DNA from: Synechococcus sp. JA-2-3B'a(2-13)
GTDB taxonomy: Bacteria > Cyanobacteriota > Cyanobacteriia > Thermostichales > Thermostichaceae
Direction: 5' to 3'
Length of the DNA stretch: 64,000 nucleotides
NCBI RefSeq assembly: GCF_000013225.1
Contig: NC_007776.1
Location: 2,238,501 to 2,302,500 of the forward strand
Both the position numbers and the translations under genes were made by a program. Each line of letters starts with the position of its first letter. Position 1 is the stretch's first letter. Below the pieces are notes generated by a model. The model made no database searches and had not been told where the DNA came from. It worked only from the letters and a program-made list of their open reading frames with translations. Of this stretch, positions 8,793-52,535 are shown one piece after another.

Positions 8793-8871
8793 CTCAGCTA
8801 GAAATCGCAGGAGCCCCGCACTGTACCCGTAGGGTCAGTGTCGGGAGGAATGCGGAAGTTATGATAGAACC

Positions 8872-10065
8872 ATGACCCAAGTCCTGACCGTCTCCTGCAA
8901 GCTCAAGGTGTCTCAGTCGCAAGCCGCAAAGTTGGATGCGACAACGGATGCCTTTGTGCAGGCGTTGAACTGGGTCAACCAAAACACACCAGAAAAAGTA
9001 GTCAACGCAGTCAAACTCCAGTCCCTTTGCTATTACCAGATTCGCGCTCGGTTTGGCTTGTCCAGTAACTTGACTCAGCAGGTCTGCAGACGGCTGGCCG
9101 GTGCCCGTAAAGTTGCCCGACAGAAAAACCGTCCGGTCAAAGCGTTCAAGAGAGGCTTTGCGACCTACGATGCACGTATCTTCTCGTTTCGCGAGAAAGA
9201 CTGGACAGTGTCGCTTGCCACGGTTGATGGAAGAGAACGCTTTGAACTAGCCATTGGCAACTACCAGCGTGGGATGCTGGCTGGTTCTAACCCCAAATCG
9301 GCCACCCTAGTCCAGCGGAAGGATGGCTCCTACTACATCCAGATTTGCGTAGAGAAAAACCCGCCCAAGCAACAAGATACCGACAAGGTGATCGGGGTGG
9401 ACTTGGGCAGGACGGATATCGCCCATACGTCAGAGGGGGACAACTGGAATGGACAGCAGTTGAACCGAATCCGAGACCACTACTCCAAGCTGAGGGCGGC
9501 ACTCCAACGCAAAGCCAGTAAGGGCACACGCAGTTCGCGGCGCAGATGCCGTCAACTGTTGCAACGGCTGTCTGGCAAGGAAAGACGCTTTCAGGCGTGG
9601 GTCAATCATCGAATCTCCAAAGCTATTGTCTCTAGGGCAAAGGCGACAAACAGCGCTCTTGCTCTGGAAGACTTGACAGGGATTCGGGAAAGGGTCAATC
9701 AACAGCCACGCAGCAAAGCCGAGCGGCGTAGGACCAACAGTTGGGCGTTCTACCAACTACGTCAGTTTCTGGAGTACAAGGCTCTGCGTGCGGGGGTTGC
9801 TCTGATTCTTGTGCCGCCTGCCTACACGTCGCAGACCTGCCACCGGTGTTTGCACATTCATCCCGACCCTGAGCAATCCTACCGCAGTGGGAAGCAGTTT
9901 AAGTGTGGACACTGTGGATGGGAAGGGGATGCGGATTTGAATGGTGCGAATGTGATTGCGCTTTTGGGGGCTGTCGTAAACCAGCCTAGAGGTTCGTGGT
10001 TGGCTTGCCAACTGCAGGGCTACCGAAAGCCCGCCCTGTACTGCGAAGCAGTCAGGGTCGGGTAG
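8872..10065 (+). CDS. tnpB: TnpB RNA-guided nuclease (IS1341-type)
   Basis: 397-aa TnpB, an RNA-guided DNA nuclease related to Cas12. RuvC residues are intact: D177 (IGVDLG), E266 (ALEDLTG) and the Asp pair D353/D355 in DADLNGAN. A zinc finger with C323, C326, C345 and C348 lies between the second and third. The protein begins MTQVLTVSCKLKVSQSQAAK; the last 30 residues are encoded by the structured right end of the element and may not be functional protein. A TATGAT -10-like box (8860-8865) precedes the ATG. It looks intact and could serve guide RNAs from the three short copies. It is only distantly similar to the tnpB at 38727-39932. Confidence 0.92.
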   Translation: MTQVLTVSCKLKVSQSQAAKLDATTDAFVQALNWVNQNTPEKVVNAVKLQSLCYYQIRARFGLSSNLTQQVCRRLAGARKVARQKNRPVKAFKRGFATYDARIFSFREKDWTVSLATVDGRERFELAIGNYQRGMLAGSNPKSATLVQRKDGSYYIQICVEKNPPKQQDTDKVIGVDLGRTDIAHTSEGDNWNGQQLNRIRDHYSKLRAALQRKASKGTRSSRRRCRQLLQRLSGKERRFQAWVNHRISKAIVSRAKATNSALALEDLTGIRERVNQQPRSKAERRRTNSWAFYQLRQFLEYKALRAGVALILVPPAYTSQTCHRCLHIHPDPEQSYRSGKQFKCGHCGWEGDADLNGANVIALLGAVVNQPRGSWLACQLQGYRKPALYCEAVRVG

Positions 10066-10070
10066 TTTAC
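9976..10070 (+). ncRNA. Candidate omega (guide) RNA scaffold, copy A
   Basis: The 3' end of the tnpB element aligns with the short copies from GTAAACC onward. It contains a GGGCT/AGCCC hairpin, then a longer stem pairing CCCTG-ACTGC with GCAGT-CAGGG around a GAA loop, and stops at GGGTAGTTTAC. In known TnpB systems the RNA continues into flanking DNA, which acts as the guide; here that would begin ATGGTTCCCGG at 10071. The 5' boundary of the RNA is not determined. Confidence 0.45.
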
Positions 10071-10277
10071 ATGGTTCCCGGTGCCGTTGTCTTCTCTGAG
10101 ATGCGATCTCCTCAGCCAGGTATTCTCGATCCAAGTCGCTCCCATTGGCCGGGGGCCAGGAACTGGGCTTGCTCCGTGTTCAGAGAAGAGGCCTTCAATC
10201 TTCGGAAAGTAAGCCGATGGGTACACCTGCACAGCCAAGATGGGATCCTAGATTCACAGTCTTCCCCAGAACTTCAG

Positions 10278-10439
10278 ATGACAACTCCCCCCGAAAGGCC
10301 TAACCCCAAAATGAAATCGGGATCCCTGCCCTCTGCCCTGCGATCCGGGCTGAACATTGCCCTGTTCCTATTCTTGGTGGTGCTGGTTTCCTACTTGGGT
10401 CTTAACTTCGTGCTGGCCTTGGTGGACAAGCTCAGGTGA
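10278..10439 (+). CDS. Small predicted membrane protein, unknown
   Basis: Open frame of 53 aa from an ATG at 10278, downstream of the tnpB element. The first 25 residues are polar and Pro-rich (MTTPPERPNPKMKSGSLPSA), followed by one strong hydrophobic helix (ALFLFLVVLVSYLGLNFVL) and a short KLR tail. No clear ribosome site is visible, and the frame is open further upstream, so the start is uncertain. No family recognised. The coherent membrane segment favours a real gene, but the support is limited. Confidence 0.4.
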   Translation: MTTPPERPNPKMKSGSLPSALRSGLNIALFLFLVVLVSYLGLNFVLALVDKLR

Positions 10440-10578
10440 CCACTCCGTAAACCGATCCCCCGGCGTCACCCCGTTGCTGCTGGCCCGGATTTGCCAATGG
10501 CCCTTTGTCGCCAAGGGCAGGAAAGATACACTGGATTTACAGGACTTAACACCTTCTCTCAGTTGCCCCCTTGCCACC

Positions 10579-11166
10579 ATGAGCCCCCTCTTTTGGTTGA
10601 GGCTGCCCTCTTTCTCCTGGCCTTCGCCGGGATCCCTTAAGCTTTATTCCAGATCCTACTCTGGATCTCAACCAGGGCCGACCCTAGCCCGCCGGGATCC
10701 TTCCTGGAAGCGTTGGCTGCGCTATCTTTATCTGCGCCTGTTGCGGCTGCAATCGTCGCCAAAAGAAATTGCCCGTGGCTTGGCGGTAGGGGTTTTTGCC
10801 GGCTGTTTCCCCATCTTCGGCTTTCAAACGTTGGCCGCTCTGGTGTTGGCTGTTCCGTTTCGGGGCAACAAGCTGGCGGCGGCGGCAGGGACCTGGGTGA
10901 GTAACCCCTTCACCTATGTGCCCATCTATGCATTCAACTACCAGGTGGGAGAATGGCTACTGGGATCCCGAACTGTCCTTCCCACCACAGAGCTGGTGGC
11001 GGCCACCTGGCAAAACTGGATGCAGTGGGGCTTGGAGATGTCGGGCACGCTGTTTGTCGGCTGTGCGTTTGTCGGTTTTTGGGGATCCCTTGTCAGCTAT
11101 TTTCTGGGGCTGTGGTTGGTGCAGCGGATTCGTCGGCGGCAGAAAATGGCCGGCAGGGGTCTGTGA
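10579..11166 (+). CDS. DUF2062 domain membrane protein
   Basis: 195 aa from the ATG at 10579. The DUF2062 signature is clear: SSPKEIARGLAVGVFAGCFP followed by FGFQTLAALVLAVPFRGNK and an NPFTYVPIYAFNYQVGEWLL stretch. Two to three membrane helices are predicted, ending with FVGFWGSLVSYFLGLWLVQR and a basic tail. The function of the family is not established. The frame stays open upstream to 10357, but that part is low-complexity. The next gene, map, follows after about 100 bp on the same strand. Confidence 0.8.
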   Translation: MSPLFWLRLPSFSWPSPGSLKLYSRSYSGSQPGPTLARRDPSWKRWLRYLYLRLLRLQSSPKEIARGLAVGVFAGCFPIFGFQTLAALVLAVPFRGNKLAAAAGTWVSNPFTYVPIYAFNYQVGEWLLGSRTVLPTTELVAATWQNWMQWGLEMSGTLFVGCAFVGFWGSLVSYFLGLWLVQRIRRRQKMAGRGL

Positions 11167-11271
11167 ATGGGCGCAAGGCGATTCAGAATCCCAACTGAGA
11201 ACCCAATCCTGGACAGTCTGCAGGTGCAGAGATCCATCCGTTTTCACAGAGCTTTTCACAGATAAGGTCTC

Positions 11272-12150
11272 ATGATGGAAGACATGCGAGCGTTGTTGAC
11301 AGACCTCAGCCGTCGCTCCCAGCGATGGGGGGAGCAGTTGGGATCCGCTTTGCAGACGGGTATGAACCAGCTCACGCAAGCCCCTCAGCCCATTGTGTTG
11401 CTCTCTTCGCGGGAACTGGAGAAAATGCGGCGGGCTTGTCGCCTGGCGGCAGATCTGCTCAAGCACTTGGAGCCGATGGTGCGACCAGGGGTCACCACCC
11501 AAGAGCTCAACGACGAGGCCGAGCGATGGACGCGGGCGCATGGGGCCAGAAGCGCCCCTTTGGGCTACCATGGCTTTCCCAAGTCCATCTGCACCAGCGT
11601 CAACCACGTGGTTTGCCACGGCATTCCCAGCCCCAAGCAGATCCTGCGAGAAGGCGACATCATCAACATCGATGTCACCCCGGTTTTGGATGGCTACCAT
11701 GGCGATACCTCCAAAACCTTCTTTGTCGGACAGCCTTCTGAGCGGGCGCGGCGCCTGGTGGAGGTGACCGAAGAATGTCTGCGGCGGGGCATTGCTGCTG
11801 TAAAGCCGGGGGGGAGAGTCGGCGACATTGGCGCTGCCATCCAAGAATATGCCGAGGCCCAGGGCTACAGCGTGGTGCGCGATTTTGTCGGGCATGGGGT
11901 GGGACGGCAATTCCACACTGCTCCCCAGATCCCCCACTACGGCGAGCGAGGAAAAGGGGAGAAACTCCGCCCCGGCATGGTGTTCACCATCGAGCCGATG
12001 ATCAACGAGGGCACCTGGGAGGTGAAGGTGCTCTCCGACGGGTGGACGGCGGTAACTTTAGATGGCAAGCTCTCGGCGCAATTTGAACATACAGTCGCCG
12101 TTACCGAAACCGGTGTAGAAATTTTAACCCTGCCTTCCCAAAGCCCTTGA
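11272..12150 (+). CDS. map: Methionine aminopeptidase, type I
   Basis: Removes the initiator methionine from nascent proteins using a dinuclear metal site. 292 aa, about 30-40 longer than E. coli Map because of an N-terminal extension (residues 1-40, MMEDMRALLTDLSRRSQRWG). The pita-bread fold motifs are present: VCHGIPS, the metal ligands in IDVTPVLDGYHGDTSKTF, FVGHGVGRQFHTAPQIPHY, FTIEPMI and QFEHTVAVTETG. Cyanobacteria often carry several Map paralogues; this extension could mark one of the variant classes. Followed after 6 bp by the ClC gene on the same strand. Confidence 0.95.
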   Translation: MMEDMRALLTDLSRRSQRWGEQLGSALQTGMNQLTQAPQPIVLLSSRELEKMRRACRLAADLLKHLEPMVRPGVTTQELNDEAERWTRAHGARSAPLGYHGFPKSICTSVNHVVCHGIPSPKQILREGDIINIDVTPVLDGYHGDTSKTFFVGQPSERARRLVEVTEECLRRGIAAVKPGGRVGDIGAAIQEYAEAQGYSVVRDFVGHGVGRQFHTAPQIPHYGERGKGEKLRPGMVFTIEPMINEGTWEVKVLSDGWTAVTLDGKLSAQFEHTVAVTETGVEILTLPSQSP

Positions 12151-12156
12151 GCCATC

Positions 12157-14028
12157 ATGAACAGCGCCCCCGCTCTCCGCCTGCGCCTCTCCTCCGAGAA
12201 CCTGCTGCTGCTGCTGGCGGCGGCAGTGGGGTTGGCCACGGGGCTGTTGGTGGTTGGATTTCGCTACTTGATTGGCTGGTGGCGCTATCTGCTGCAGGAC
12301 ACCCTCGTGGATGGCATCGGCAGGGCTGCAGAACACTATGGCCTGTGGCTGCTGGGATCCTGGACACTGGCTCTGGCGCCGGTGCTGGGGGGCCTGCTGA
12401 TCGGCGCTTTGGGGGCAGTTGTGCCCTTTCCCAACTTGAGCCTCTCCAGCTTGGTGAGTCCTGCTCGTCCTTTGGCACTTCAGCCCTGGTGGATCCCGCT
12501 CAAGCTCTTGGCGGCTGCCATCTCGTTGGGCGCGGGAGCTTCCCTTGGCCCTGAGGCCCCCAGTGTGGAAAGTGGCGCTTTGCTGGGATCCCTGCTGGGG
12601 CAAAACCTACGCCTCTCGCGGGAGCGGGTGCAACTGTTGATGGCTGCCGGAGCAGCGGCTGGCCTGGCGGCAGGGTTTAACGCGCCCATTGCCGGGGTGT
12701 TTTTGGCGCTGGAGCTGGCTTTGGCCCGCACCTTCACCACTTCTGCTGTCAGTGTGGTGGTGTTGGCGGCGGTGGTCTCCGCCTTGATCGCCCAGGTGGG
12801 GTTGGGGGCACAACCCGCTTTTCTTTTGCCCACCATCACCCAGCCGGCTTTTGTCTTGCCGGACTACGAGATCCACAGCTTGCTGGAGGTACCTCTGTAT
12901 CTCGGCTTGGGCTTTTTGGCCAGCCTGGTTTCTATGGCCTTCAGCTACACCCTGGAGTGGGGCAAGCACCTGTTCAACAGTGGCCCCCTGGCGGCCTGGC
13001 CAGCTTGGAGCAAGCCCATTTTGGGGGGCGGGATCCTGGGCTGCGCGGGCTTGGGGATCCCATTGGCGTTGGGGGTGGGCTATGAAACCATTGAGTCGAT
13101 TCTGCAGGCCGTTCCCTTTTCTCTTGGCCATCTGGGCCTGCTCCTATTGGGCAAGCTGTTGCTGAGCGCTTTGAGCCTGGGCAGCGGCTTTGTGGGGGGA
13201 ACCTTTGCCCCGGCTTTGTTCATGGGGGCAGTGCTGGGGGCAGGCTACGGTCAGGTGCTATCCCAAGCTTTGCCCCTGATTGCCTTGTCTCCCCCCGCTG
13301 CCTACGCCATGGTGGGCATGGCGGCTGTGTTGGCGGCCAGTGTGCGGGCTCCGCTAACGGCCATCTTGCTGCTGTTTGAGATGACGCGGGACTATCACAT
13401 TGCGCTGCCGGTGATGGCGGCAGTGGGTTTGAGCATCTGGCTGACGGAGCAGTTGCATTCGCCGGCCATCTACCCTTCCGCCCGTCGCTATCGCCACGCA
13501 ACGCTTGACGGAGTCCTTGGGCAGGAGCCTAGAGAGCTGACGGTGCAAGAGGTGATGGTGCCCCCATCTCTTTTGCTTCGGCAAGACACACCGCTGCGAG
13601 AAGCTCTGGAGAGTTTGCTGCAGCAAAAGTGCCATAGCGCGTTGGTGGTGGACGGACAGGAGCGGCTGCGGGGCATTCTCACCCTGGAAGACCTGGAGCG
13701 GGCCTTGGCCCACAAGGAGGCGGCGGAGTTGGCGGAGCTAACCGTACAGGAGGTCAGCCAATCCCCAGTTCTCACCACCTTCCCCGATGAGGCGGTGGCA
13801 GTGGCAGCCGAGCCGATGTACGAATACGATTTGCGCCAATTGCCGGTGGTTTCTCGGGAAGACCCAGAGCAGATCGTCGGCCTGTTGGATCGAGAGCGGG
13901 TGCTGCTCTCCCAAGAGATTCAATCGGTGCGGCAAGCCCTGGAGTTGGAAGTTCCCCCAGCAGAGAGAGACGCCGGCAGGAACGGACAAGAGGGGATCCC
14001 CGATGCTTCTACTGCGCCCGCAGAATAG
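12157..14028 (+). CDS. ClC-family chloride channel/antiporter with C-terminal CBS pair
   Basis: 623 aa. Residues 1-430 form the ClC membrane domain with the family's conserved helix ends: GAGASLGPEAPSVESGALLG (selectivity segment), GSGFVGGTFAPALFMGA and a later membrane run. Residues about 455-590 hold two CBS domains (VQEVMVPPSLLLRQDTPLRE and VQEVSQSPVLTTFPDEAVAV), which usually bind adenine nucleotides. Whether it works as a channel or as a Cl-/H+ exchanger is not decided here. It starts 6 bp after map and is probably co-transcribed with it. Confidence 0.93.
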   Translation: MNSAPALRLRLSSENLLLLLAAAVGLATGLLVVGFRYLIGWWRYLLQDTLVDGIGRAAEHYGLWLLGSWTLALAPVLGGLLIGALGAVVPFPNLSLSSLVSPARPLALQPWWIPLKLLAAAISLGAGASLGPEAPSVESGALLGSLLGQNLRLSRERVQLLMAAGAAAGLAAGFNAPIAGVFLALELALARTFTTSAVSVVVLAAVVSALIAQVGLGAQPAFLLPTITQPAFVLPDYEIHSLLEVPLYLGLGFLASLVSMAFSYTLEWGKHLFNSGPLAAWPAWSKPILGGGILGCAGLGIPLALGVGYETIESILQAVPFSLGHLGLLLLGKLLLSALSLGSGFVGGTFAPALFMGAVLGAGYGQVLSQALPLIALSPPAAYAMVGMAAVLAASVRAPLTAILLLFEMTRDYHIALPVMAAVGLSIWLTEQLHSPAIYPSARRYRHATLDGVLGQEPRELTVQEVMVPPSLLLRQDTPLREALESLLQQKCHSALVVDGQERLRGILTLEDLERALAHKEAAELAELTVQEVSQSPVLTTFPDEAVAVAAEPMYEYDLRQLPVVSREDPEQIVGLLDRERVLLSQEIQSVRQALELEVPPAERDAGRNGQEGIPDASTAPAE

Positions 14029-14044
14029 AGCCCTGCTGTCGGGA

Positions 14045-14800: not shown

Positions 14801-14803
14801 AGC

Positions 14804-15907: not shown

Positions 15908-15937
15908 CCGTGTGCCGGTTAGGGATCCCTGAGACCT

Positions 15938-18967: not shown

Positions 18968-18971
18968 GCCG

Positions 18972-21773: not shown

Positions 21774-21891
21774 GATGACCTTAGAACAATGACAAAGAAG
21801 CCGAGCTTGTCAACGGCATAGGGTCAAGAGAACAGATGTATCTAGGGTAGCGGCTAAGATCAAGGAGTCCTGCAGGGGAGAGGCGAGGTTA

Positions 21892-22617
21892 GTGAACTTG
21901 TCAAGGCCACAGAGGAGCGCTTCACCCCCGGTAAGGGGGCCGGCAAGGATGGCGAGGTGGGCAGGGATCCTGCTCGTGGGTGGGCTGATGGGGAGTTGGC
22001 GGAGTGAGGCAACCTGGGCAGAAAGCGAGTTTCGGGTGGGGAGTGAGCTGGTTTTGACCCTGCGCACCCCCGATGCCCCCGCTCGCCTCCGTCTGCTGAA
22101 GCAACGGTTGGAAGAGATTTTGCTACAGGCCAGCAGCCCTCAGGTGCAGGTCAGTCTGGATATCCCCAGTCCCAATCCCTCGACGACCGGCAGCGGGGAT
22201 CCCCCAGCTCAAGCCGCTCGGATTCTTTTGAACCAGCAACTGCTGTTGGAGGTAACTCCAGCCGATGCAGAGGCTCATGCTGCTCCCCAACCGGCAGATC
22301 TGGCAAGGATCTGGGCGGATCGCCTGCAAACGGTGTTCAACCAGGAATCCAGTCGGCAGCAACTGTTTTTGGGATTGGGGCTGCCCCCGCACTTGACCTG
22401 GCAAGGGCGACTCTATCGCCGCGCTGAGCGTGCTGCCGCCGATACTGGGCGCTTTGTTACCGATGGCACTCGCATTCAAGATCATGTGGTCTATTGGGAG
22501 ATCCCCTCTGGAGAAAACCCGTTTGATTTTACTGACAAGCCGACCCTGTCGGATCCGCCGCCGGAGCGGCTATTTTTGTTGAATCGCCACCGCCAGTTTG
22601 TGCCCTACGAGTTGTAA
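21892..22617 (+). CDS. Secreted or anchored protein of unknown function
   Basis: Up to 241 aa from a GTG at 21892; an ATG at 21949 (MARWAGILLVGGLMGSWRSE) would place a signal peptide right at the N-terminus and is a plausible alternative. The mature part contains VGSELVLTLRTPDAPARLRL, a Pro/Gly-rich stretch, and ends FLLNRHRQFVPYEL. No domain was recognised. It precedes the M48 peptidase gene by about 35 bp on the same strand, which suggests a shared transcript. Confidence 0.65.
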   Translation: MNLSRPQRSASPPVRGPARMARWAGILLVGGLMGSWRSEATWAESEFRVGSELVLTLRTPDAPARLRLLKQRLEEILLQASSPQVQVSLDIPSPNPSTTGSGDPPAQAARILLNQQLLLEVTPADAEAHAAPQPADLARIWADRLQTVFNQESSRQQLFLGLGLPPHLTWQGRLYRRAERAAADTGRFVTDGTRIQDHVVYWEIPSGENPFDFTDKPTLSDPPPERLFLLNRHRQFVPYEL

Positions 22618-22651
22618 CCGAAGTCCTTTCTCCCTCTGTTGTCTATTGTCT

Positions 22652-23521
22652 ATGTCGTCCATTCAACGAGAACCTCGCATTCTGTTGGGCCTGCGGGCCG
22701 ACCAATTTCGTCATCCCGTGGATCTGCAAGCCACCCGCTCTCTGCAGCAAGTGCCGGGGCTGGGCCTGCTGATTCAAAATTGGCTTGGCTCAACGGCAGG
22801 ACAGATATTTTATCTGGACAACATTGCTTCCAGTATCCAAATTAACGAGCATCAGTTGCCGGAAATTCATCAGCTTTTGGTGCAGGCCTGTCGCATCTTG
22901 GATCTGGAGGTGCCCCAGCTCTACGTGCGGCAGAACCCCACGCCCAATGCTTACACCTTTGCCATGCAGGGGAAAAAGCCCTTCATTGTCTTGCACAGCT
23001 CTCTGCTGGATCTGTTGGAGCCGCCGGAAATTCAGGCCGTGATCGCTCATGAGTTGGGCCACTTGAAGTGCAATCACGGGGTCTACTTGACGATGGCCAA
23101 CATTCTCATGCTCTCCACCAGCTTGCTCCCCTTCGGGGGGTTGTTTTATCAGGCGTTGCAGGATCAACTGATGCACTGGCTGCGGTGTGCCGAGTTTACC
23201 TGTGACCGGGCGGCGCTGTTGGTAGCCCAAGATGCCAAGACGGTGATCTCGGTGTTGATGAAATTGTGTGGGGGATCCCCGCAGTTGGCCTCCAAGCTGA
23301 ACGTGGACGCCTTTTTGGAGCAGGCCCGTACTTACGACGAGCTGGACGGGGATCTGTGGCAGATGGAGCTGAAGCAGATGCAAACGGTGGGGCGCACCCA
23401 TCCGCTGCCGGTGCTACGGGCCAGAGAAATCGAGCGTTGGTTCCGCAGCAACACCTATCAGCAGATCCTGGAGCTCCAGGGATTGGGCTCCGCACCGCGG
23501 ACGTCAACGGCTGCTTCGTAA
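22652..23521 (+). CDS. M48-family zinc metallopeptidase
   Basis: 289 aa from the ATG at 22652 (MSSIQREPRILLGLRADQFR). The zinc site HELGH (VIAHELGHLKCNHG) and the downstream Glu ligand (EFTCDRAALL) define an M48/Ste24-HtpX-type peptidase. A hydrophobic stretch (MANILMLSTSLLPFGGLFY) lies between them. The family cuts membrane or misfolded proteins. The last codons run into a 235-bp mobile element, and the stop codon TAA (23519-23521) is made by that element's right end, so the original C-terminus may have been slightly different. Confidence 0.88.
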   Translation: MSSIQREPRILLGLRADQFRHPVDLQATRSLQQVPGLGLLIQNWLGSTAGQIFYLDNIASSIQINEHQLPEIHQLLVQACRILDLEVPQLYVRQNPTPNAYTFAMQGKKPFIVLHSSLLDLLEPPEIQAVIAHELGHLKCNHGVYLTMANILMLSTSLLPFGGLFYQALQDQLMHWLRCAEFTCDRAALLVAQDAKTVISVLMKLCGGSPQLASKLNVDAFLEQARTYDELDGDLWQMELKQMQTVGRTHPLPVLRAREIERWFRSNTYQQILELQGLGSAPRTSTAAS

Positions 23522-23667
23522 ACTACCCGACTCCGACCGCTAAAGCAGTACAGAGCGGGCTTTTAGTAGCCCTGCAGTTGGCAAGCCAACCACGAGCCTC
23601 TGGGGTGGTTTACAGCACCCCCAATCGACCGTTACCAGTGCCTTAAACAACCGTTTCTGGTGTCCGC
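23518..23667 (-). ncRNA. Candidate omega (guide) RNA, copy B
   Basis: A TATAAT box on the minus strand (23674-23679) would start a transcript near 23667 that runs 150 nt to the right end. The terminal stem pairs CTCTG-ACTGC with GCGGT-CGGAG, with changes relative to copy A that keep the pairing. The guide would begin GAAGCAGCCGT, antisense to the end of the peptidase gene. Confidence 0.4.
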
Positions 23668-23752
23668 AGTACAATTATAACCATGGAGGCGGACTTTCCT
23701 CTCGACACTGATCCTACCGGTACAGCACGGGGCTCCTGCGATTTCTAGCTGA
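23518..23752 (-). mobile_element. Short tnpB-less element (family copy B)
   Basis: 235-bp relative of the tnpB element, reversed. The right end GTAAACTACCCGAC lies at 23518 and the left end (TTTCTAGCTGA) at 23752. It is the most diverged of the three short copies, with changes in the left end. It sits between the M48 peptidase gene, whose stop it supplies, and the PfkB kinase gene, whose ATG is 9 bp beyond it. Confidence 0.82.
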
Positions 23753-38726: not shown

Positions 38727-39932
38727 TTATGCAACGCTGAACAAAACAGAACTTTGCCCAGCATCGCTGCTTTCTTCCTGCTTCAGCGACCCATGACTGG
38801 CGGCAGAGTTCACCTCCACCGCCCCGCCAGAGGGATCTCCACAGGCGTTACTTCCCCGCGAGCTGCAGGTAGTTAGATACCACTGGGCTAGGTTGATGGC
38901 TGCATTCAAGTCGCGGTCTAGCTCCAGACCACAACACGGGCAGCGAAATACCCGCTCGCTGAGTGGCATCTTCTGTTTGTGGCCACACCCTGAACACAGT
39001 TGGCTGGACGGATAAAACCTATCCGCCACCACCACCTGACAGCCGTAGAGTTGGGCCTTGTACTCTAGCTGTCGCCGAAACTCGTAGAACCCACAGTCTG
39101 ACAGCGCTCCTGCCAACTTGCGGTTCTTAAGCAGGTTCTTCACCTGCAAGCCCTCAATCACCACCACCCGATACTTCTTGGCCAGGTAAGTCGTTAGCTT
39201 GTGCAGATTGTCTTGCCGAATGTCTGCCACCCGCTTGTGGGCCCTGCCTAACTGCACCACCGCCTTCTTACGGTTAGCGGATCCCTTCTGCTTGCGACTC
39301 AGCCGCCGTTGCAGTTTGGTCAGACGCCTCCTCGCCTTACGGTAGGGCTTTGGATTCTCGAATACTTCCCCGTCGGAGCAGGTGGCCAAGTGATGGATCC
39401 CTAAGTCCACTCCCACAACTTCCCCGGTCTTCTCCACTTGAGGCGCTGGAGCTTCATATTTGAAGGAGATGTACCAGTGTCCGGCGCGAAGACTGATGAC
39501 CACGTTCTTGGGTGTGGTCGCCGGAAGTAACTCTGCACAGCGCAGCCAACCGAAGATAGGCACCTTGATGCGGTCGCCAGAAATGCGGATGCTGCCTTCT
39601 AGGTAAAAGCTGTCTCGCACTCCCTTGCGTTTGAAGCGGGGGAACTTCCCCAACCCACCCCGCCAGCGCTTAAAGGCTTGCTCCAAGTTGCGTAATGCCT
39701 GCTGAGGAGCGCATTTGGAGACCTGGTAGTACCAGGGGTTTTCCTTCTTAACCTCGGCTACCAGGCGCTTGTGCAGGTCAATGGCGGTGGGGAGTTTCTG
39801 CCGGTTCTCCAGGGCTTGCCGACAGATGGCCAGGCCCCAGTTGTAGGCGTGACGGGCTACCCCAGCGTGCTGAGCGGCTAGGGTCTTCTGCCGGTTATTC
39901 AGCTCTAAGCGGGTGCGGAATCCAAGCAGCAT
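38727..39932 (-). CDS. tnpB: TnpB RNA-guided nuclease (second lineage)
   Basis: 401-aa TnpB with intact RuvC residues: D176 (VGVDLGIHHLA), E260 (VVVIEGLQVKNL) and the Asp pair in DRDLNAAINLA; zinc-finger Cys at 313, 316, 331 and 334. The C-terminal tail after residue 352 (NACGDPSGGAVEVNSAASHG) is typical where the gene runs into its element's right end, 15 bp from the cobQ stop. Its ATG (39932) touches the left end of a short element of the other family, inserted at 39933. No ribosome site remains upstream, so expression is doubtful. No tnpA nearby. Two GGATCC sites occur inside. Confidence 0.88.
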   Translation of the reverse strand: MLLGFRTRLELNNRQKTLAAQHAGVARHAYNWGLAICRQALENRQKLPTAIDLHKRLVAEVKKENPWYYQVSKCAPQQALRNLEQAFKRWRGGLGKFPRFKRKGVRDSFYLEGSIRISGDRIKVPIFGWLRCAELLPATTPKNVVISLRAGHWYISFKYEAPAPQVEKTGEVVGVDLGIHHLATCSDGEVFENPKPYRKARRRLTKLQRRLSRKQKGSANRKKAVVQLGRAHKRVADIRQDNLHKLTTYLAKKYRVVVIEGLQVKNLLKNRKLAGALSDCGFYEFRRQLEYKAQLYGCQVVVADRFYPSSQLCSGCGHKQKMPLSERVFRCPCCGLELDRDLNAAINLAQWYLTTCSSRGSNACGDPSGGAVEVNSAASHGSLKQEESSDAGQSSVLFSVA

Positions 39933-39992
39933 TCAGATAGAAATTGCAGGAGCCCCGTACGGTACCCGTAGGGTCAGTGTCGGGAGGAATGC

Positions 39993-39998
39993 TATAAT
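39993..39998 (+). promoter_or_regulatory. Extended -10 promoter element in short copy C
   Basis: TGCTATAAT: a perfect TATAAT with the extended TGn motif. The same sequence occurs in copy D. There is no good -35 hexamer 16-18 bp upstream. It would start a transcript near 40005 that runs to the right end of the element. Confidence 0.5.
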
Positions 39999-40004
39999 GG
40001 TACT

Positions 40005-40152
40005 GCGGGCACCAGAAACAGCTTTTAGGGCACTGGTAACGGTCGATTGGGGGTGCAGTAAACCACCCCAGAGGCTCGTGGTTGGCTTGCTAACTGCAGG
40101 GCTACTAAAAGCCCGCTCCGTACCGCCTAGCGGTTGGTGTCGGGTAGTTTAC
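40005..40152 (+). ncRNA. Candidate omega (guide) RNA, copy C
   Basis: About 148 nt from the predicted start to the right end. Hairpins visible: GGGCT/AGCCC around TACTAAA, and ACCGC/GCGGT around CTA. The guide would begin ATAGCCGCGGCC at 40153. Size and placement fit known TnpB guide RNAs; transcription is not shown by sequence. Confidence 0.42.
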
Positions 40153-40263
40153 ATAGCCGCGGCCAACATGCTTAGTTTAATGGCTATTTCGGTTCCGCAA
40201 AGTAACCAATTGTTCAGCAGATCGGGGACTAGAGGCAGCCCCTGTAGCTTGTTCGCGAAAGCG

Positions 40264-45653: not shown

Positions 45654-45662
45654 GCTCTACAC

Positions 45663-45854
45663 TTACTCGAGCACAGTATAAGACATGCTCGTCGCGTAAG
45701 GGAAGCGAAAGAGACGGAGATTGCGGAGGCCCAGCATCTCGATCGTTGCCAGTGTTTCACCCGGAAACTGACGCATGTTGAGCTCATCGAACAAGATCAC
45801 AGCTCCCTTTGGCATGCGTGGCACAAGCAACTCCAGCGCTAGCTTTGTCTGCAA
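45663..45854 (-). pseudogene. C-terminal remnant of a TylF/MycF-like O-methyltransferase
   Basis: A 63-codon frame whose product (LALELLVPRMPKGAVILFDE, then LNMRQFPGETLATIEMLG, ending SMSYTVLE) matches the C-terminal third of sugar O-methyltransferases of the macrocin/TylF type. There is no room for the N-terminal SAM domain, because the next gene ends 34 bp upstream. It is most likely the leftover of a gene trimmed when the cluster was rearranged. Confidence 0.6.
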
Positions 45855-45888
45855 ATTGCTCCTTGAGTCGCTTCATTTTCACCCTCGC

Positions 45889-46662: not shown

Positions 46663-46676
46663 GGATCTCTCCTTGT

Positions 46677-47570
46677 TTAAAGGAAGTTGCAGCGGCGGCA
46701 TGGCTCTACCTGCAGACGGTTGTCCACCGTCGCGCGCAGTCGGCGATAGCTTGGGCTGTTGTAGATGTCGAGGACATGCTGCTCCCGAACGTTGCCTATG
46801 GGGTAGCGTGCCTGGCCATCGGCGCAACAGTGGGCTACCACACCCGTTGCCGTGATTGATATGTCAAACCAGCGAGTGCAGGCTATGGGCGGTGCCGTGG
46901 GAGGCGACACATCGACCTGGCCAAGCCAGTTCATGCGCGGAAAAATGCTAACTTCGAACAATGGATACGTTGTCCTTACCCAGGTAATGAAATCCTCATC
47001 AGCTGCTGTGCCGTCTCCAACACGGGATAGCACAATGCGCATTGGCAAGCGTCCCTCAGCTTTTGCTTTGTGAAGTCTGTCCAGGCTTTCGCGAGTCCGT
47101 CTGTAGGGCAACTTCATCGTTGCCTCGTATTCGTCTGGGCGGTGATCGTTGAAGCTAACCCACAAGTAACCAAGATTGGGAAACTGTGTTAATCGTTCCA
47201 CAATCCGCTCGTTGATGAGGGAGCCATTGGTAGTCAAGGTGATGGTAGCGTGCGGTAGCTCAGACTGAAGATATGTAAGCAAATCGAAGATCCGTGTATC
47301 CAAAAATGGCTCATTAACCTTAAAAGGACTTAATTGAAAGCGATGAAGACGCGGAATGTCTTTGAGGTCATTGACAATTTTTTCTATTAGAGAATCATCC
47401 ATCTTTGCTCCCTTTCTTTCCAGTGAAGAATAGGGACAAAAGTTGCAGGCAGCGTTGCAACGTGCCATCGTTTCCAGATGGACATGAGCTGGAAAGTCAA
47501 TGTATGAACTCTCCCGCATCGCCAGAGCTCTGCGCTGATAGTCCAGCAAGTTCGGCGGAATTGTGCTCAT
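46677..47570 (-). CDS. Radical SAM / SPASM-domain protein
   Basis: 297 aa from the ATG at 47570; an AGGAGG lies 9 bp upstream, so this start is preferred over 47591. The radical SAM cluster motif is CNAACNFC (C38, C42, C45), followed by ITLTTNGSLINERIVERL. The C-terminal half carries a SPASM-like set of cysteines: ACTRWFDI, HCCADG and CRRCNF. SPASM enzymes modify peptides, proteins or sugars through auxiliary iron-sulfur clusters. No precursor-peptide gene was recognised next to it; given the neighbours, glycan modification is the simplest guess. Confidence 0.87.
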   Translation of the reverse strand: MSTIPPNLLDYQRRALAMRESSYIDFPAHVHLETMARCNAACNFCPYSSLERKGAKMDDSLIEKIVNDLKDIPRLHRFQLSPFKVNEPFLDTRIFDLLTYLQSELPHATITLTTNGSLINERIVERLTQFPNLGYLWVSFNDHRPDEYEATMKLPYRRTRESLDRLHKAKAEGRLPMRIVLSRVGDGTAADEDFITWVRTTYPLFEVSIFPRMNWLGQVDVSPPTAPPIACTRWFDISITATGVVAHCCADGQARYPIGNVREQHVLDIYNSPSYRRLRATVDNRLQVEPCRRCNFL

Positions 47571-47591
47571 CTCACTGTCCTCCTGCAGCAT

Positions 47592-47996
47592 GCAATTGTC
47601 TACTCATTAAAACATTGCAACAGGCTCCCCCGTGTGGGCGCTTCGCACCCCTAGCAGGAACGCTGCTGCCTGCGGTAACTCTAACCTAGAGCATGACTCT
47701 AGTCAGTAATAAGCTCAACTATACTGAAAATAATGTATAATATGTTCAGTACGGATTACTACCAGTTGATCTTTCTGTTTACTTTCGAGTCTGCCAACAT
47801 GGTAGCCAAAGCAAAGCAGAAAATTGGTAGTAAGACGACACGGAAACTGCGCTTTGGGTATTCTACTCAAAGCTTTGCGGGATACCGCCATTCTGTTTGG
47901 ACTCCGTCCCGCTAACGCGAATGGAAACAAACAGAATGCTATCGCTGCATAGTTGAACAGTGATGTTCAGCAGTGTTCAGCGTAAATGTATCAGCC
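47592..47996. other. A+T-rich 405-bp gap with interlocked inverted repeats
   Basis: Gap between the radical SAM gene and a small secreted protein gene. It is richer in A+T than its surroundings. A GCGGGA/TCCCGC pair (47877-47882 with 47907-47912) interlocks with an 11-bp pair CATTCTGTTTG/CAAACAGAATG (47889-47899 with 47928-47938), a pseudoknot-like arrangement. A 60-codon open frame at 47733-47915 has no recognisable product. It could be the decayed end of a mobile element or a structured RNA. Confidence 0.4.
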
Positions 47997-48317
47997 ATGA
48001 ACTGGCAACACCTCTTCACTCGCGCTTTTTGGGCGGCGACCCTCGCCAGCTTGTGCCTGCCGGGAGCGGTTCTGGCCCAGGCTAACCTGCGGGAACTCCC
48101 TCCAGACCTGGCAGAACAGCTAACCACAGAGCAAATTTTGCAAGCCTGCGCCGCCAACCAAGCCGATACCCTGCCCAGCCCCTTCCCGGACGTGGTGCCG
48201 ACCGACTGGGCCTACAAGGCAGTGCTGACGCTCTACTACTGTGGGGCCTACCGGGGGGCTATCCCACCGGAGACCTTCCGGCGCTACCTGGAGCAACAAC
48301 GGGGATCCCAAACCTAG
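47997..48317 (+). CDS. Small secreted protein with a single SLH-like motif
   Basis: 106 aa from the ATG at 47997 (MNWQHLFTRAFWAATLASLC), a signal peptide ending near AVLAQA. The mature protein carries one S-layer-homology-like motif (FPDVVPTDWAYKAVLTLYYC, then GAYRG). It then ends PPETFRRYLEQQRGSQT. A single SLH unit is short for cell-wall anchoring, since these usually come in threes. In cyanobacteria this motif is common in envelope proteins. It could bind peptidoglycan or a pyruvylated polymer; function unknown. Confidence 0.7.
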   Translation: MNWQHLFTRAFWAATLASLCLPGAVLAQANLRELPPDLAEQLTTEQILQACAANQADTLPSPFPDVVPTDWAYKAVLTLYYCGAYRGAIPPETFRRYLEQQRGSQT

Positions 48318-48327
48318 AAGGCTGGCT

Positions 48328-50214
48328 CTACTTCAAAGATCGGTACATCTCCTCGATGAGGTGAGCGTAGCGCTCCGCCACAGGGTTGCGCTTAATTTTC
48401 AGCGTCTGGGTCATGAGGCCGTTTTCCACACTCAAGGGCTCCGGCAAGAAGCGAAAGTCGCTGACCTGCTCGTCGGGCCGGTAGCCAGGGCGTTCTTGGA
48501 TGCGGCGGCGCACCTCCTGCAAAATCAAGGTGCGGGTCTGGGGCTGGGCCAGCAGCTCGGCATCCTCAGCCGGGATCCCTTGCTCAGCAGCCCAGGCTTT
48601 GAGGGCATCGAGGTTGGGGTAGATGAGGGCAGCCAATTTCTTTTGGTCTTGCCCGACGATCACGATTTGGCTGATGTAAGGAGACTGCAGACAAGCATCT
48701 TCCAGCGGCTGGGGCTCAATATTCTCCCCGTTGAGTAGGACGATGACATCCTTGGCTCTGCCGGTGATCACCAGTTGCCCATCGGGGGTGAGCCAGCCCA
48801 GATCCCCGGTTTCAAACCAGCCGTCGGAGCTGAGCACCTTGGCAGTGGCTTCCGGGTTGTTGTAGTAGCCCATCATCACCTGCGGGCCACGGGCCAGGAT
48901 TAGTCCTTTTTCTCTAGGGGGCAGCGGCTGTCGAGTTTCAGGATCCACAATGCGAAACTCCGTCCCCGGCAGAGGGGGGCCAGCCGTACCGCGCACATTG
49001 TTGTCTGGACGCCGCGCGCACAACACCGGCGAAGTTTCGGTGAGGCCGTAGCCATTCAAGATGGAAATGCCCACCACCTCGTAGAACAGATCCAAGTAGG
49101 CAGGCAGGGATCCACCGCCGCTGATGGCATGTTGAAAATTGGGGCCCAACGCCTGTCGCACCTTGCGGTAGATGAGCGCATCGGCCAATCGGTGCAGGGG
49201 CCAGAGCAGCCAATGTTGCAGGCGAGCCTGCAGACGCACCCAGGGGCTGACTCCGTAATGCAAAATCGACTGGTTGCGAGCTATCCGTCCAGAGAGCACA
49301 TGGCTCTCACTCACGGCCATCAGAGCGCGGATCAGCCGCTGCATCAGGGGGCTTTTCTCTTTGAATTGCCGTTGGATCCCTTCATAAACGGTTTCCCAAA
49401 TCCGCGGCACTGCCACCAGAAAATGGGGGTGCTCCTGTTGGAAATCTTGTTTGATAAAGCGAGGGCTGGTATAGACCAGCATGCAGGCACGGCTGAGGAG
49501 AAAATACTCGCAAGCCCGCTCATAAGAGTGCCAAGTGGGCAGAATGGTCAACACCTTATTCCCCGGTTGTGGCTGTACGACCACGCCCAAGTTCTCCACC
49601 TGGTGCATCAGGTTGCCGTGGCTGAGCATCACCCCCTTGGGCCGACCGGAGGTGCCGGAGGTGTAGATGATGGTGGCCAGTTGGGATCGCTCCAGCTTTG
49701 GGGGTTGGTAGGTGTGTTCCCGACCCTTTTGCAGCCATTGGGAAAAGTTCAGCACCCCTGCTTCCTGCTCATCGGAAAGCAACAGCAGCCGTTCCAGGCC
49801 CAGCTCCTGCACATCCGGCCGGATCCGCCTCAGGGTCTTCAGATCCTGAGCAATCAGGGCCGTGCTACCGGAGTGGCGCAAGATGTAGCCCAGCTCACTG
49901 GGATCCGCCACAGCGCTGCGGGGCACATTCACAGCTCCCGTGAACATCGTGGCCAGATCGGCCATCAGCCAGCGGGGGGAGTTATCGGCAAAAATGGCCA
50001 CCCGATCCCCCGGGCAAATGCCCAAAGCCTGCAGGCCAGCCGCCAGGGTTTGAATGCGGCGAAACAGCTCTCCATAAGACATCTCGAAAACTGGCTGCGC
50101 GTGGGGATCCCGTAGGGCAACTTGACCGGCAAACTCTTCCGCCAGCACTTGCCAAACGTTCAGCAGCGTCATCTCAGGGGCAGTGGGAGTAGCAGAAGCG
50201 GCAGCAGTTGTCAT
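48328..50214 (-). CDS. Long-chain acyl-CoA/acyl-ACP synthetase (AMP-forming)
   Basis: 628 aa, the length of cyanobacterial acyl-ACP synthetase (Aas), which reactivates free fatty acids. The adenylate-forming motifs are clear: the P-loop TIIYTSGTSGRPKGVMLSHG, the A5 motif NGYGLTETSPVLCA, then GWFETGDLGWLTPDGQLVIT and the hinge/Lys region ITGRAKDVIVLLNGENIEPQ. Whether CoA or ACP is the acceptor cannot be read from sequence. It starts MTTAAASATPTAPEMTLLNV; its stop faces the small SLH-like gene. Confidence 0.92.
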   Translation of the reverse strand: MTTAAASATPTAPEMTLLNVWQVLAEEFAGQVALRDPHAQPVFEMSYGELFRRIQTLAAGLQALGICPGDRVAIFADNSPRWLMADLATMFTGAVNVPRSAVADPSELGYILRHSGSTALIAQDLKTLRRIRPDVQELGLERLLLLSDEQEAGVLNFSQWLQKGREHTYQPPKLERSQLATIIYTSGTSGRPKGVMLSHGNLMHQVENLGVVVQPQPGNKVLTILPTWHSYERACEYFLLSRACMLVYTSPRFIKQDFQQEHPHFLVAVPRIWETVYEGIQRQFKEKSPLMQRLIRALMAVSESHVLSGRIARNQSILHYGVSPWVRLQARLQHWLLWPLHRLADALIYRKVRQALGPNFQHAISGGGSLPAYLDLFYEVVGISILNGYGLTETSPVLCARRPDNNVRGTAGPPLPGTEFRIVDPETRQPLPPREKGLILARGPQVMMGYYNNPEATAKVLSSDGWFETGDLGWLTPDGQLVITGRAKDVIVLLNGENIEPQPLEDACLQSPYISQIVIVGQDQKKLAALIYPNLDALKAWAAEQGIPAEDAELLAQPQTRTLILQEVRRRIQERPGYRPDEQVSDFRFLPEPLSVENGLMTQTLKIKRNPVAERYAHLIEEMYRSLK

Positions 50215-50832
50215 AGATCTGTACCGTAAATTACGTTTACAGTCTATTAAACCCAGCCTCTCTCCCCACGTGTCGCTAGGACAGTTCCCAGCCTGTCACC
50301 CCATTCACCATCTTCCCCTTGCGGGGAAAAGGTAAGGATCAACACTATAAAATCTTGCGCTGGCAGAACCAGGGTGGTGATTGCTCGCCCCGGCAGATTG
50401 CGCACAAAACTTTACAATTTTGATCAAACCGGATCCCATATCTCCCATGGGGATCCCGGCTGTAAGCTTCATCTGAAGTTCCAGAAGGCCACGCAGGATC
50501 AGGACAAAGGCTCCTAGGGATTTTGTTTCACTTTTTCCATCTTCCCATTCGGCAACAATCTCTTCATCAAGTGGTGAAGTCTTGCCAAAAGTAAGCCAGG
50601 ATCAGCGTAGGGCTCCACAGGCATCTTTTCCCTCACCCTTAACCTCTCTTCCGATGAAAGAAATGGGGTCACGCCATCCTCGCAATAGGCAGCCATTGTC
50701 TTCGGCCCTGCCGACAAGGAGAAAAAGCAGGCGGGGATCCATAAGCCCATAAAGCAAACAGCTGCGGTGTTATCCACAGCTTGAGCAGAGTCCAGATCTG
50801 AGCAGCTCATCGTTTCTGGAGGTTGTGTATCG
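50215..50832. other. 618-bp gap without a recognised gene
   Basis: Region between the divergent acyl-activating enzyme and pcm genes. It contains a TTCCCC/GGGGAA hairpin near 50312-50328, GGATCC palindromes near 50431, 50452 and 50737, and A+T-rich patches that could hold promoters. No coding frame looked convincing. Confidence 0.4.
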
Positions 50833-51567
50833 GTGATCAACCCATTCTCATCCTTCCGGTGGAGACATTCTTCTCGCTCTCCAGCTGGGATCCCAGAAGT
50901 TGAACCTCAGCCCCCAGACGCTTCCGATCCTTTTGCTTCCCAACGGGAGCAGATGGTCAAGAAACAGCTCATCAAACGAGGGATCCGAGATCCACGGGTA
51001 CTGGAAGCCATGGGAAAAGTGCCGCGTCACCTTTTTGTCCCCTCTGATCTGCGGGATCGGGCCTACAGGGATTGCCCTCTGCCCATCGGCTATGGCCAGA
51101 CCATTTCTCAGCCCTATATTGTTGCTTTTATGACAGAAGCTGCTCGCCTCACGCCTGAATCGGTGGTGTTGGAAATCGGCACCGGCTCCGGCTATCAGGC
51201 GGCTGTTTTGGCAGAGCTGGCCCGGCAAGTGTATAGCCTGGAGCGTCTGTCCCCATTGGCTGCTCAAGCTCAACAAACCCTCGCTGCCCTGGGCTATCGC
51301 AACGTGGAAGTGCGTCAGGGGGATGGCTACCAAGGTTGGCCAGAGCATGCTCCCTACGATGCCATTCTGGTGACGGCAGCGCCCCCAACTGTGCCCATGG
51401 TGCTGCTGGATCAACTGGCGGTGGGGGGCACCTTGGTGGTGCCGGTGGGAGAAAGCCCTTCGGACTCCGGTGCCCAGGGATCCCAGTCCTTGCTGATCCT
51501 CTGCAAAACAGCCCAAGGATGGGTTCAAAAAGGGGCTTTTCCAGTGCAGTTTGTGCCCATGGTCTAG
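50833..51567 (+). CDS. pcm: Protein-L-isoaspartate O-methyltransferase
   Basis: Repairs damaged Asp/Asn residues in proteins. Up to 244 aa from a GTG at 50833; the first 30 residues are not conserved, so a start closer to KKQLIKRGIRDPRVLEAMGK is possible. The family motifs follow: PRHLFVPSDLRDRAYRD, LPIGYGQTISQPYIVAFMTE, then VLEIGTGSGYQAAVLAELA and DAILVTAAPPTVP. The stop overlaps the convergent GDPD stop (shared CTAG at 51564-51567). Confidence 0.93.
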   Translation: MINPFSSFRWRHSSRSPAGIPEVEPQPPDASDPFASQREQMVKKQLIKRGIRDPRVLEAMGKVPRHLFVPSDLRDRAYRDCPLPIGYGQTISQPYIVAFMTEAARLTPESVVLEIGTGSGYQAAVLAELARQVYSLERLSPLAAQAQQTLAALGYRNVEVRQGDGYQGWPEHAPYDAILVTAAPPTVPMVLLDQLAVGGTLVVPVGESPSDSGAQGSQSLLILCKTAQGWVQKGAFPVQFVPMV

Positions 51568-52304
51568 GGTTTTGCCCCCTCTATTTCTGCCAAAAGGTGG
51601 GCGCGAATTTGCAAAGCCAATTGGGGACGGTCGGTAATCAACCCTTGAACAACGGGATTTTGTCCTACTGAGCCGGCAAATGGCTGCAAGCACAACTTCA
51701 TCACTTCAGGATCGTTCACCGTCCAAACGTACAGAGGGATCCCGGCCTGTTCAGCTTCAGCCAAGAACTGCAAGTTCACCCAACTGTAGTGGGAGGCCAG
51801 AAAATCCGCTCCCAACTCCCGGCAACGGGTAAGTAAAGATCCCTTGGCTTGCTCCTCAGCCTTTGCCTCGATCAACAGGCCAACCTTGGGTTGCGGGGAC
51901 AAAAGCGTTTTAACCCGCTGCACCACCTGAGGCAAAAAAGAGGTGATCACAAATTCTTCGGGGGTCAAAATATCGCTAACGAGGGCAAGGACTTGTTCCT
52001 CATAGCCTGCTTCTTTGAGTTCGATATCGAGGGTGATCTTGCCCTTGATATGTGACAGGGTCTCTTCAAGAGTGGGAATCGTGGGTTTGCGGGCCCGAAT
52101 CTCGGCCCAAGTTAATGCGGCCAAAGGCTGTCCATCCAAATCGGCATCGTGAACAACCAGTGGGATCCCATCTCGGCTACAGCGCACATCCAGCTCAATT
52201 TGCTCGGCCCCCACTTCAACAGCAGCAGCAAAAGCGGCCAACGTGTTTTCCTCGGCGTGGGTGTGCTCCCCACGGTGGGCGACAATCTGGGTGTAGGGGA
52301 GCAT
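51564..52304 (-). CDS. Glycerophosphodiester phosphodiesterase (GDPD)
   Basis: 246 aa. Splits glycerophosphodiesters into glycerol-3-phosphate and an alcohol. Active-site motifs are visible: VAHRGEHTHAEENTLAAFAA (His, Glu), QIELDVRCSRDGIPLVVHDA (metal ligands and His), and a closing LYVWTVNDPEVMK. No signal peptide, so cytosolic. A 221-bp mobile element sits 10 bp upstream of the ATG and replaces the native promoter; that element's own promoter points into this gene. Converges with pcm. Confidence 0.93.
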   Translation of the reverse strand: MLPYTQIVAHRGEHTHAEENTLAAFAAAVEVGAEQIELDVRCSRDGIPLVVHDADLDGQPLAALTWAEIRARKPTIPTLEETLSHIKGKITLDIELKEAGYEEQVLALVSDILTPEEFVITSFLPQVVQRVKTLLSPQPKVGLLIEAKAEEQAKGSLLTRCRELGADFLASHYSWVNLQFLAEAEQAGIPLYVWTVNDPEVMKLCLQPFAGSVGQNPVVQGLITDRPQLALQIRAHLLAEIEGAKP

Positions 52305-52314
52305 GTCAGCACCT

Positions 52315-52463
52315 GTAAACTACCCGACACCAACCGCTAGGCGGTACGGAGCGGGCTTTTAGTAGCCCTGCAGTTAGCAAGCCAACCACGAGCCTCTGGG
52401 GTGGTTTACTGCACCCCCAATCGACCGTTACCAGTGCCCTAAACAACCGTTTCTGGTGTCCGC
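52315..52463 (-). ncRNA. Candidate omega (guide) RNA, copy D
   Basis: About 149 nt from a predicted start near 52463 to the right end. Same hairpins as copy C. The guide would begin AGGTGCTGACATG, which covers the GDPD start codon. If the transcript continues it becomes the 5' leader of the GDPD mRNA. Confidence 0.42.
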
Positions 52464-52535
52464 AGTATTATTATAGCATTCCTCCCGACACCGAACCTAC
52501 GGGTACAGTGCGGGGCTCCTGCAATTTCTAGCTGA
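52315..52535 (-). mobile_element. Short tnpB-less element (family copy D)
   Basis: 221-bp element, reversed: right end GTAAACTACCCGAC at 52315, left end (TTTCTAGCTGA) at 52535. Nearly identical in the body to copy C. On the minus strand it carries TGCTATAAT (-10 at 52470-52475) and transcribes toward the GDPD gene, whose ATG is 10 bp past the right end. Confidence 0.87.

Follow-up and report, generated by a model that had tools for sequence, protein, structure and literature searches.

Can a short repeat that encodes no protein be a guide-RNA gene that moves on its own? The question is raised by a 64,000-nucleotide (nt) stretch of the chromosome of Synechococcus sp. JA-2-3B'a(2-13) (NC_007776.1, positions 2,238,501 to 2,302,500; G000:C1:2238501-2302500 in our numbering), referred to below as the window. 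It holds one long transposon copy with a tnpB gene (copy A) and three short copies without one (B, C and D). From sequence comparison, we consider it probable (about 0.68) that B, C and D are non-autonomous IS200/IS605-type elements, each with a complete, self-standing TnpB guide-RNA gene, that behave selfishly and would use TnpB in trans to avoid loss. The first-pass annotation had described them as stand-alone TnpB guide-RNA genes that supply one intact TnpB with guides in the manner of a scattered array. Stand-alone guide-RNA genes are still the best reading: the plan of the RNA, the position of the promoter and the long-range pairing beside the guide all fit it, as judged against the ISDra2 structural report (PMC10097598). 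The finding is sound, and its central interpretation is likely once the single TnpB and the scattered array are taken out.

Copies A to D and their families in the genome

All four copies lie where they had been placed, counting the TCAG that precedes each: A at 8794-10070 (+), B at 23518-23752 (-), C at 39933-40152 (+) and D at 52315-52535 (-); genome searches agree. The shared termini are confirmed at the right end, where the final 11 bases are identical in A-D. At the left end the leading TCAG is target sequence and lies outside the element, and the tip itself is TCAGCTAGAAAT in A, B and D and TCAGATAGAAAT in C. The TATAAT box noted in B, C and D is present. The stretch that begins at the first conserved G and ends with the right tip, given earlier as 148-150 bp, measures 150 nt in B, 148 nt in C and 149 nt in D.

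The first-pass annotation had proposed a whole-genome search. We searched the source genome (G000; one contig of 3,046,682 bases) with C, scoring the best 40 of 122 candidates, and with A, scoring the best 40 of 90. The likeness of C to D (E 4.7e-96) and to B (E 9.0e-71) is too strong for chance. Among the 40 matches listed for C are 14 short copies, all without tnpB (L061-L074; C is L061, D is L062 and B is L069). The left end of L073 has diverged, and L074 departs furthest from the rest of the set. The search with A gave 38 long tnpB copies, 75-100% identical to A and with the same ends as the short ones, together with four fragments. A search with an RNA model (R1) independently returned 53 matches in this genome, namely the 14 short copies, the 38 long copies and one tnpB fragment. 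As in miniature inverted-repeat transposable elements (MITEs), the 14 short copies have no transposition gene, are dispersed and share the ends of a longer element.

The claim of a single intact TnpB holds only for the copy A family inside the window. Genome-wide, 30 of the 38 long copies look intact by simple criteria (at least 385 amino acids and three RuvC motifs), which is only a rough count because the eight failures consist of one copy a single residue below the length cut-off (L083) and seven that lack one motif by a simple pattern. Elements like copy A, with tnpB only, we take to be of the IS1341 type. The window also contains a second, different TnpB gene (38727-39932, minus strand); its start codon (39930-39932) directly adjoins the TCAG target of C, which is oriented away from it. 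A further tnpB family in the genome (L080, L118 and L119, near 96351, 270772 and 560888) has the same right tip, GGGTAGTTTAC, and a similarly placed GTAAAC stretch. The body of B, C and D had been described as absent from A. This is correct for the first ~46 nt of the RNA; positions 115-220 of C, on the other hand, match A at 83%.

The predicted guide RNA and its promoter

The conserved block of the short copies runs from 6 nt past a -10-like hexamer to the right tip. Two features of TnpB guide RNAs are found in it: stems 2-4 stand in order before the guide, and the loop of stem 1 (GUAAAC) forms a pseudoknot with GUUUAC adjoining the guide in 57/57 elements, two of them via a wobble change. 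A second long-range pairing, CUAC/GUAG, is present in 56/57. In alignment A3 (10 of 19 sequences; excluded were L063-L067 as near-identical, L071, L074 with another stem 3, and L128 and L143 with insertions), a structure that combines stems 1-4 with the loop pairing and with a mini hairpin described below gives 98.0% paired cells. Six pairs, distributed over stems 1, 3 and 4, are changed on both sides; none of 500 shuffles scored as high, and versions of the structure slid along the alignment had 0-2 such pairs. Alignment A2, comprising 15 of 18 short RNAs (the awkward L074, L128 and L143 included, the near-identical L064-L066 excluded), contains three doubly changed pairs, with 2/500 shuffles as high. 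In L074, stem 3 is replaced by a different long hairpin, likewise found in many long copies.

The guide RNA of ISDra2 from Deinococcus radiodurans overlaps tnpB. According to PMC8612924, this omegaRNA, also called reRNA (right-end element RNA), comes from the right end, and its last 16 nt are flanking DNA. In the cryo-electron microscopy report (PMC10097598), the scaffold measures 116 nt and has stems 1-4, and the loop of stem 1 forms a pseudoknot by pairing with bases -6 to -2 next to the guide. The short RNAs follow the same plan, with stem 1, a loop pairing just before the guide and stems 2-4, and measure ~103 nt from stem 1 onward. By our own reading, the hairpins would correspond to ISDra2 stems 1, 3 and 4. 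The short RNAs differ in having a -10 box of their own, no tnpB and an added ~46-nt 5' domain, whereas the resolved ISDra2 scaffold starts at stem 1.

The 5' domain begins GCGGACACCAGAAACGG, precedes stem 1, is among the best conserved parts of the short RNA and occurs in 0/38 long copies. It contains two similar 12-nt motifs (40011-40043 in C; consensus ACCAGAAACGGT and ACTGGTAACGGT, 9/12 identical), the second of which carries a GUAA loop (GGAA in L122). A GNRA-capped mini hairpin (ACUG-GUAA/GGAA-CGGU) fits 10/10 aligned sequences, and its pairs never vary. A 5-bp ACCAG/CUGGU pairing was rejected; it shows no covariation and is broken in L122. An origin of the domain in tnpB coding sequence was also rejected: among 35 distinct upstream stretches scored, four were short copies, and the lowest shuffle fractions in the other 31 were 0.02 and 0.05 (L042 and L199), indicating no clear link to tnpB 3' coding regions. 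With the domain missing from all long copies and without clear likeness to the tnpB 3' regions examined, the proposed descent of B, C and D from a different tnpB relative does not follow. Antisense pairing of the domain to the copy A tnpB mRNA was no better than chance (-35.5 versus a shuffle mean of -35.7 kcal/mol, 45/100 as good) and was discarded. Sorting loci by a crude motif and longest-open-reading-frame test gave none with both the 5' domain and TnpB; L209 and L227 had neither. L128 and L143, both in the related genome G004, carry nearly the same GC-rich insert of ~24 nt. It separates the 5' domain from stem 1 and looks like a small repeat that entered there and left the scaffold unbroken.

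In the short copies, exactly 6 nt separate the hexamer from the GCGG that follows. The hexamer is TATAAT in 11/14 and TATAAC, TATGAT and AATAAT once each, with TGC or TGT before it in 11/14; many short copies are near-identical, so these matches are not independent cases. The long copies have a -10-like hexamer at the same 6-nt distance from the tnpB ATG in 36 of 37 scanned (L077 was outside the set, and L090 had no match to the start pattern). This equal spacing suggests that one left-end promoter could serve either product, and the left end looks like a single promoter whose +1 is either the tnpB ATG or the GCGG of the RNA. Short copies and tnpB-only elements such as A share ends, TCAG target, stem 1, pseudoknot and promoter spacing, and differ in what stands at +1. 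The predicted promoter of D is oriented into a GDPD gene (51564-52304), which it might drive too.

Insertion sites, guides and relatives in other genomes

The short copies have moved in the past, and their target is TCAG. The flanks of six insertion sites were joined and searched in six genomes of the genus. For three of the six, G004 has a clean empty site: CAC-TCAG-GAAGC for B, GGA-TCAG-TTCTC for L071 and GCT-TCAA-AGGT for D. The L071 site reads TCAG in G003 also. These empty sites indicate insertion 3' of TCAG without target duplication. At the remaining sites we found a flank deletion (L066), different sequence at the junction (L067) and no spanning match (L068). TCAG stands directly upstream of 38/38 long and 13/14 short copies. 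On the right, no two of the 52 flanks agree in their first 12 nt. A fixed short target (TCAG for B and L071, TCAA for D) without duplication is typical of IS200/IS605 elements, as are subterminal hairpins in place of terminal inverted repeats; here the right-end stem 4 has compensatory changes, and the left hairpin was recognized by eye only.

Short and long copies alike would be moved by a Y1 transposase. The source genome has one open gene for such an enzyme (544340-544702), which belongs to a different element, and one broken partial match. By eye, the left hairpin of the element with the open gene resembles that of some long copies, a likeness suggesting that this gene may act here. At L066 (G000:C1:679391-679611; compare L173), 174 bp that are present in G004 and would directly follow the element on its right are missing in G000. 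Because the first deleted base is the one next to the right tip, the element has acquired a new presumed guide; the gene affected may encode a glutamate dehydrogenase, which it resembles by reading alone.

For AmaTnpB, a TCAC target-adjacent motif (TAM) is reported in PMC10278001, which by analogy makes it plausible that TnpB uses TCAG as its TAM here. TCAG followed by the first 12 nt of the B guide recurs at the empty site in the relative (locus L154), and the same test for A, C and D gave no match in the sequences searched; together these results lend limited support to a site-specific guide. A guide that matches the relative's empty site fits self-preservation rather than stored targets. 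The idea of a scattered array is weakened accordingly. Spacers of a CRISPR array come from foreign DNA, whereas each presumed guide here is the flank of its own insertion, different in every copy, and the target of B is an empty site.

R1 was searched in the family (8 genomes) and in 291 genomes of the phylum. In the family it gave 77 matches in 4/8 genomes, 18 at 100.8 bits or above and 59 at 71.1 bits or below. The upper 18 are the short copies: 14 in G000, one in G003 and three in G004. In those of G003 and G004, which lack tnpB as well, the likeness to D is confined to positions 66-181 (73-92% identity; for L143 it is split in two). Their 5' domain is nearly identical to that in G000, and their left and right ends are unlike those in G000 except for the final TAGTTTA(C/T). 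Across the phylum, under stricter filters that also lost known tnpB-linked G000 copies, 18 genomes had a match, above 50 bits only in G000, G040 and G052. We refer to G040 and G052 as Limnothrix-type, as their element locus is near-identical to a contig of Limnothrix sp. CACIAM 69d. Each has one copy of a tnpB-less element (by R1, in 2/6 genomes of the order), located beside a gene whose translation reads as a probable accD. This element has nearly the same 5' domain and stem 1, other ends, a TACAAT hexamer and a full-length R1 match. The empty site is seen in G298, another genome of that genus, indicating that the Limnothrix-type element is a mobile insertion; it is ~185 bp long and sits at TTCAA or TTCAAT, with some ambiguity about the precise base. 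The exact 5'-domain pattern is present in four contigs of a contig collection from which the window's own record and close ones may be excluded, three from Synechococcus sp. M44_DOE_062 and one from Limnothrix, and in no viral contig searched; guide targets were outside the scope of this pattern search. The middle is kept while most ends change, which argues that an RNA module is conserved and not the transposon ends alone.

The features of the four copies are collected in the table. The right tip of B provides the stop codon (23519-23521, +) of an M48 peptidase frame (22598-23521). An Rfam scan of the window returned only one tRNA and a lone CRISPR direct repeat (RF01370, 50307-50343, +), with no array visible in the surrounding sequence.

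Table. Predicted features of copies A-D, in window coordinates
Feature	Position	Strand	Basis
Copy A, long tnpB-carrying element	8798..10070	+	Sequence and genome search
TCAG target / presumed TAM of A	8794..8797	+	TCAG upstream of long and short copies; empty sites
-10-like box TATGAT of A, 6 nt before tnpB ATG (would be leaderless)	8860..8865	+	Hexamer/spacing scan
tnpB of A, 397 aa, RuvC D-E-D motifs and zinc finger	8872..10065	+	Pfam PF07282, PF01385; NCBIfam guided_TnpB; motif check
Short element B (TCAG target 23749-23752)	23518..23748	-	Genome search; empty site in G004
-10 box TATAAT of B (L069)	23674..23679	-	Spacing scan
Predicted guide-RNA scaffold of B, 150 nt, 5' GCGG to UUUAC	23518..23667	-	Alignment/spacing scan
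Presumed guide of B, 16 nt (length by ISDra2 analogy)	23502..23517	-	TCAG and first 12 nt at empty site, relative locus L154
Short element C (TCAG target 39933-39936)	39937..40152	+	Genome search
-10 box TATAAT of C (L061), TGC before box (extended -10)	39993..39998	+	Spacing scan
Predicted guide-RNA scaffold of C, 148 nt; 5' domain 40005-40049, stem 1 onward 40050-40152	40005..40152	+	Alignment
Presumed guide of C	40153..40168	+	Flank adjoining UUUAC; inference
Short element D (TCAG target 52532-52535)	52315..52531	-	Genome search; empty site TCAA in G004
-10 box TATAAT of D (L062), TGC before box	52470..52475	-	Spacing scan
Predicted guide-RNA scaffold of D, 149 nt	52315..52463	-	Alignment/spacing scan
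Presumed guide of D, overlapping start codon of GDPD gene (51564-52304, -)	52299..52314	-	Inference

Competing explanations and what the elements would mean

If B, C and D are guide-RNA genes, a promoter in the left end would start the RNA at GCGG. After the 5' domain, the transcript would continue through stems 1-4 and across the right tip to the flank, whose first bases would serve as the guide. The many long copies would supply the TnpB that binds the short RNA in trans. When the transposase excised a short element, TCAG would be rejoined to the flank, and the TnpB-RNA complex would cut this empty site, so that repair from the sister chromosome restored the element. That the RNA is transcribed, bound by TnpB in trans and used for cutting and copying back is inferred here, as is any role of the 5' domain.

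Several observations weigh against this explanation. The pseudoknot pairs are invariant in the alignment and are therefore backed by conservation, not covariation, and the CUAC/GUAG pairing is broken in the Limnothrix-type element. Minimum-free-energy z-scores are ordinary (-0.90, 0.00, -1.86 and -2.02). Among six near-identical copies, variable positions number 3/109 in the core, 3/56 on the left, 1/40 on the right and 2/12 in the -10 region, so the core does not stand out from the ends by clearly lower variability. No Rfam family was found for L062, L081 or L121 at E up to 1. A scan of L062 gave no terminator, and its two -35/-10 promoter hits lie outside the element on the opposite strand, with none at the element itself. 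The -10 match is poor in the four G003/G004 copies (CATTGT, TATCCT, TATTAC and TATTGT). The site orthologous to that of L071 in the more distant G005-G007 is not TCAG. Finally, R1 found no tnpB-linked scaffold in the Limnothrix-type genomes; its one match each in G040 and G052 is the short element. R1 run against 20 TnpB loci of five genomes (12/20 Limnothrix-type) gave one chance-level match (E 0.65); most TnpB matches found in these genomes were not inspected singly.

MITEs and palindrome-associated transposable elements (PATEs) of the IS200/IS605 group are short, have no open reading frame, are presumably mobilised in trans and are dispersed. The short copies are like them in all these respects. 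They could be ordinary MITEs, in which the ends alone matter, the transposase moves the copies and the RNA-like middle is an unselected remnant of a deleted tnpB element. Such a history would be the simplest and would explain why short and tnpB copies have common ends, and neither the fold energies nor the variability of the core among the six recent copies speaks for selection on the middle. However, debris is not expected to show compensatory changes and a fixed promoter register, nor a middle that is conserved where most ends have been replaced, as in the G003/G004 copies and, with R1 matching at full length, the Limnothrix-type element. The 5' domain, absent from every tnpB copy, is not accounted for either. 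The short copies have kept a -10 box and a complete guide-RNA scaffold, which may set them apart from described PATEs. We regard a plain MITE origin as unlikely. We would give lower odds still to the short RNAs being decoys or regulators that bind TnpB while the 5' domain blocks or redirects it, taming the nuclease or controlling a neighbouring gene. That domain has no counterpart in the resolved ISDra2 scaffold, which starts at stem 1, and is well conserved, and the presumed guide of D covers a start codon; on the other side stand its chance-level complementarity to the copy A tnpB mRNA and right flanks that are all different and offer no common target. A dispersed guide array for defence, supplying TnpB with many foreign targets, would draw on 52 different guides and many TnpB genes. 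It is very improbable, as the guides are host flanks, the B target is an empty chromosomal site of a relative, and the 5'-domain pattern is in no viral contig, a search that did not extend to the guides themselves.

Set against these alternatives, guide-RNA genes that use TnpB in trans are the best explanation. A tentative extension, which we hold as possible and not as our expectation, is that trans-acting TnpB guide RNAs with the 5' domain form a class of their own: a mobile gene for RNA alone that has reached distant cyanobacterial lineages (the hot-spring Synechococcus genus and the Limnothrix-type genomes), with its ends swapped, its 5' domain and stem 1 kept, and any resident TnpB that accepts it exploited.

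Stand-alone omegaRNAs of IscB in Ktedonobacter were reportedly described by Altae-Tran and colleagues in 2021; those guide-RNA loci, too, lie apart from the nuclease gene, with IscB as the nuclease and not TnpB. Miniature elements derived from ISSoc2 in thermophilic Synechococcus (Nelson, Bhaya and Heidelberg 2012, as cited in PMC10969869) possibly come from the same strain and possibly overlap with the elements here. B, C and D may thus already have been described there as plain miniature transposons. Titles and abstract openings surveyed contained no description of tnpB-less TnpB guide-RNA elements, which is not to claim their absence from print, and term look-up in PMC11870625, PMC9956272, PMC11061315 and PMC12477157 gave no passage on them. 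As judged from the sequences, the elements belong to a known kind, the TnpB guide RNA on IS200/IS605 elements; new would be mobile genes for the RNA alone that have their own promoter and carry an additional, conserved 5' domain.

TnpB is related to the ancestor of Cas12. The elements bear on how guide RNA and nuclease became separate genes, as in CRISPR RNA and trans-activating CRISPR RNA (crRNA/tracrRNA) versus the effector. They offer a natural case of a guide RNA that apparently has its own promoter and moves apart from its nuclease. The genome has 30 seemingly intact genes for a nuclease of the matching family, so use in trans is directly testable, and the prediction is that an RNA-only element would be kept in the genome by a nuclease encoded elsewhere.

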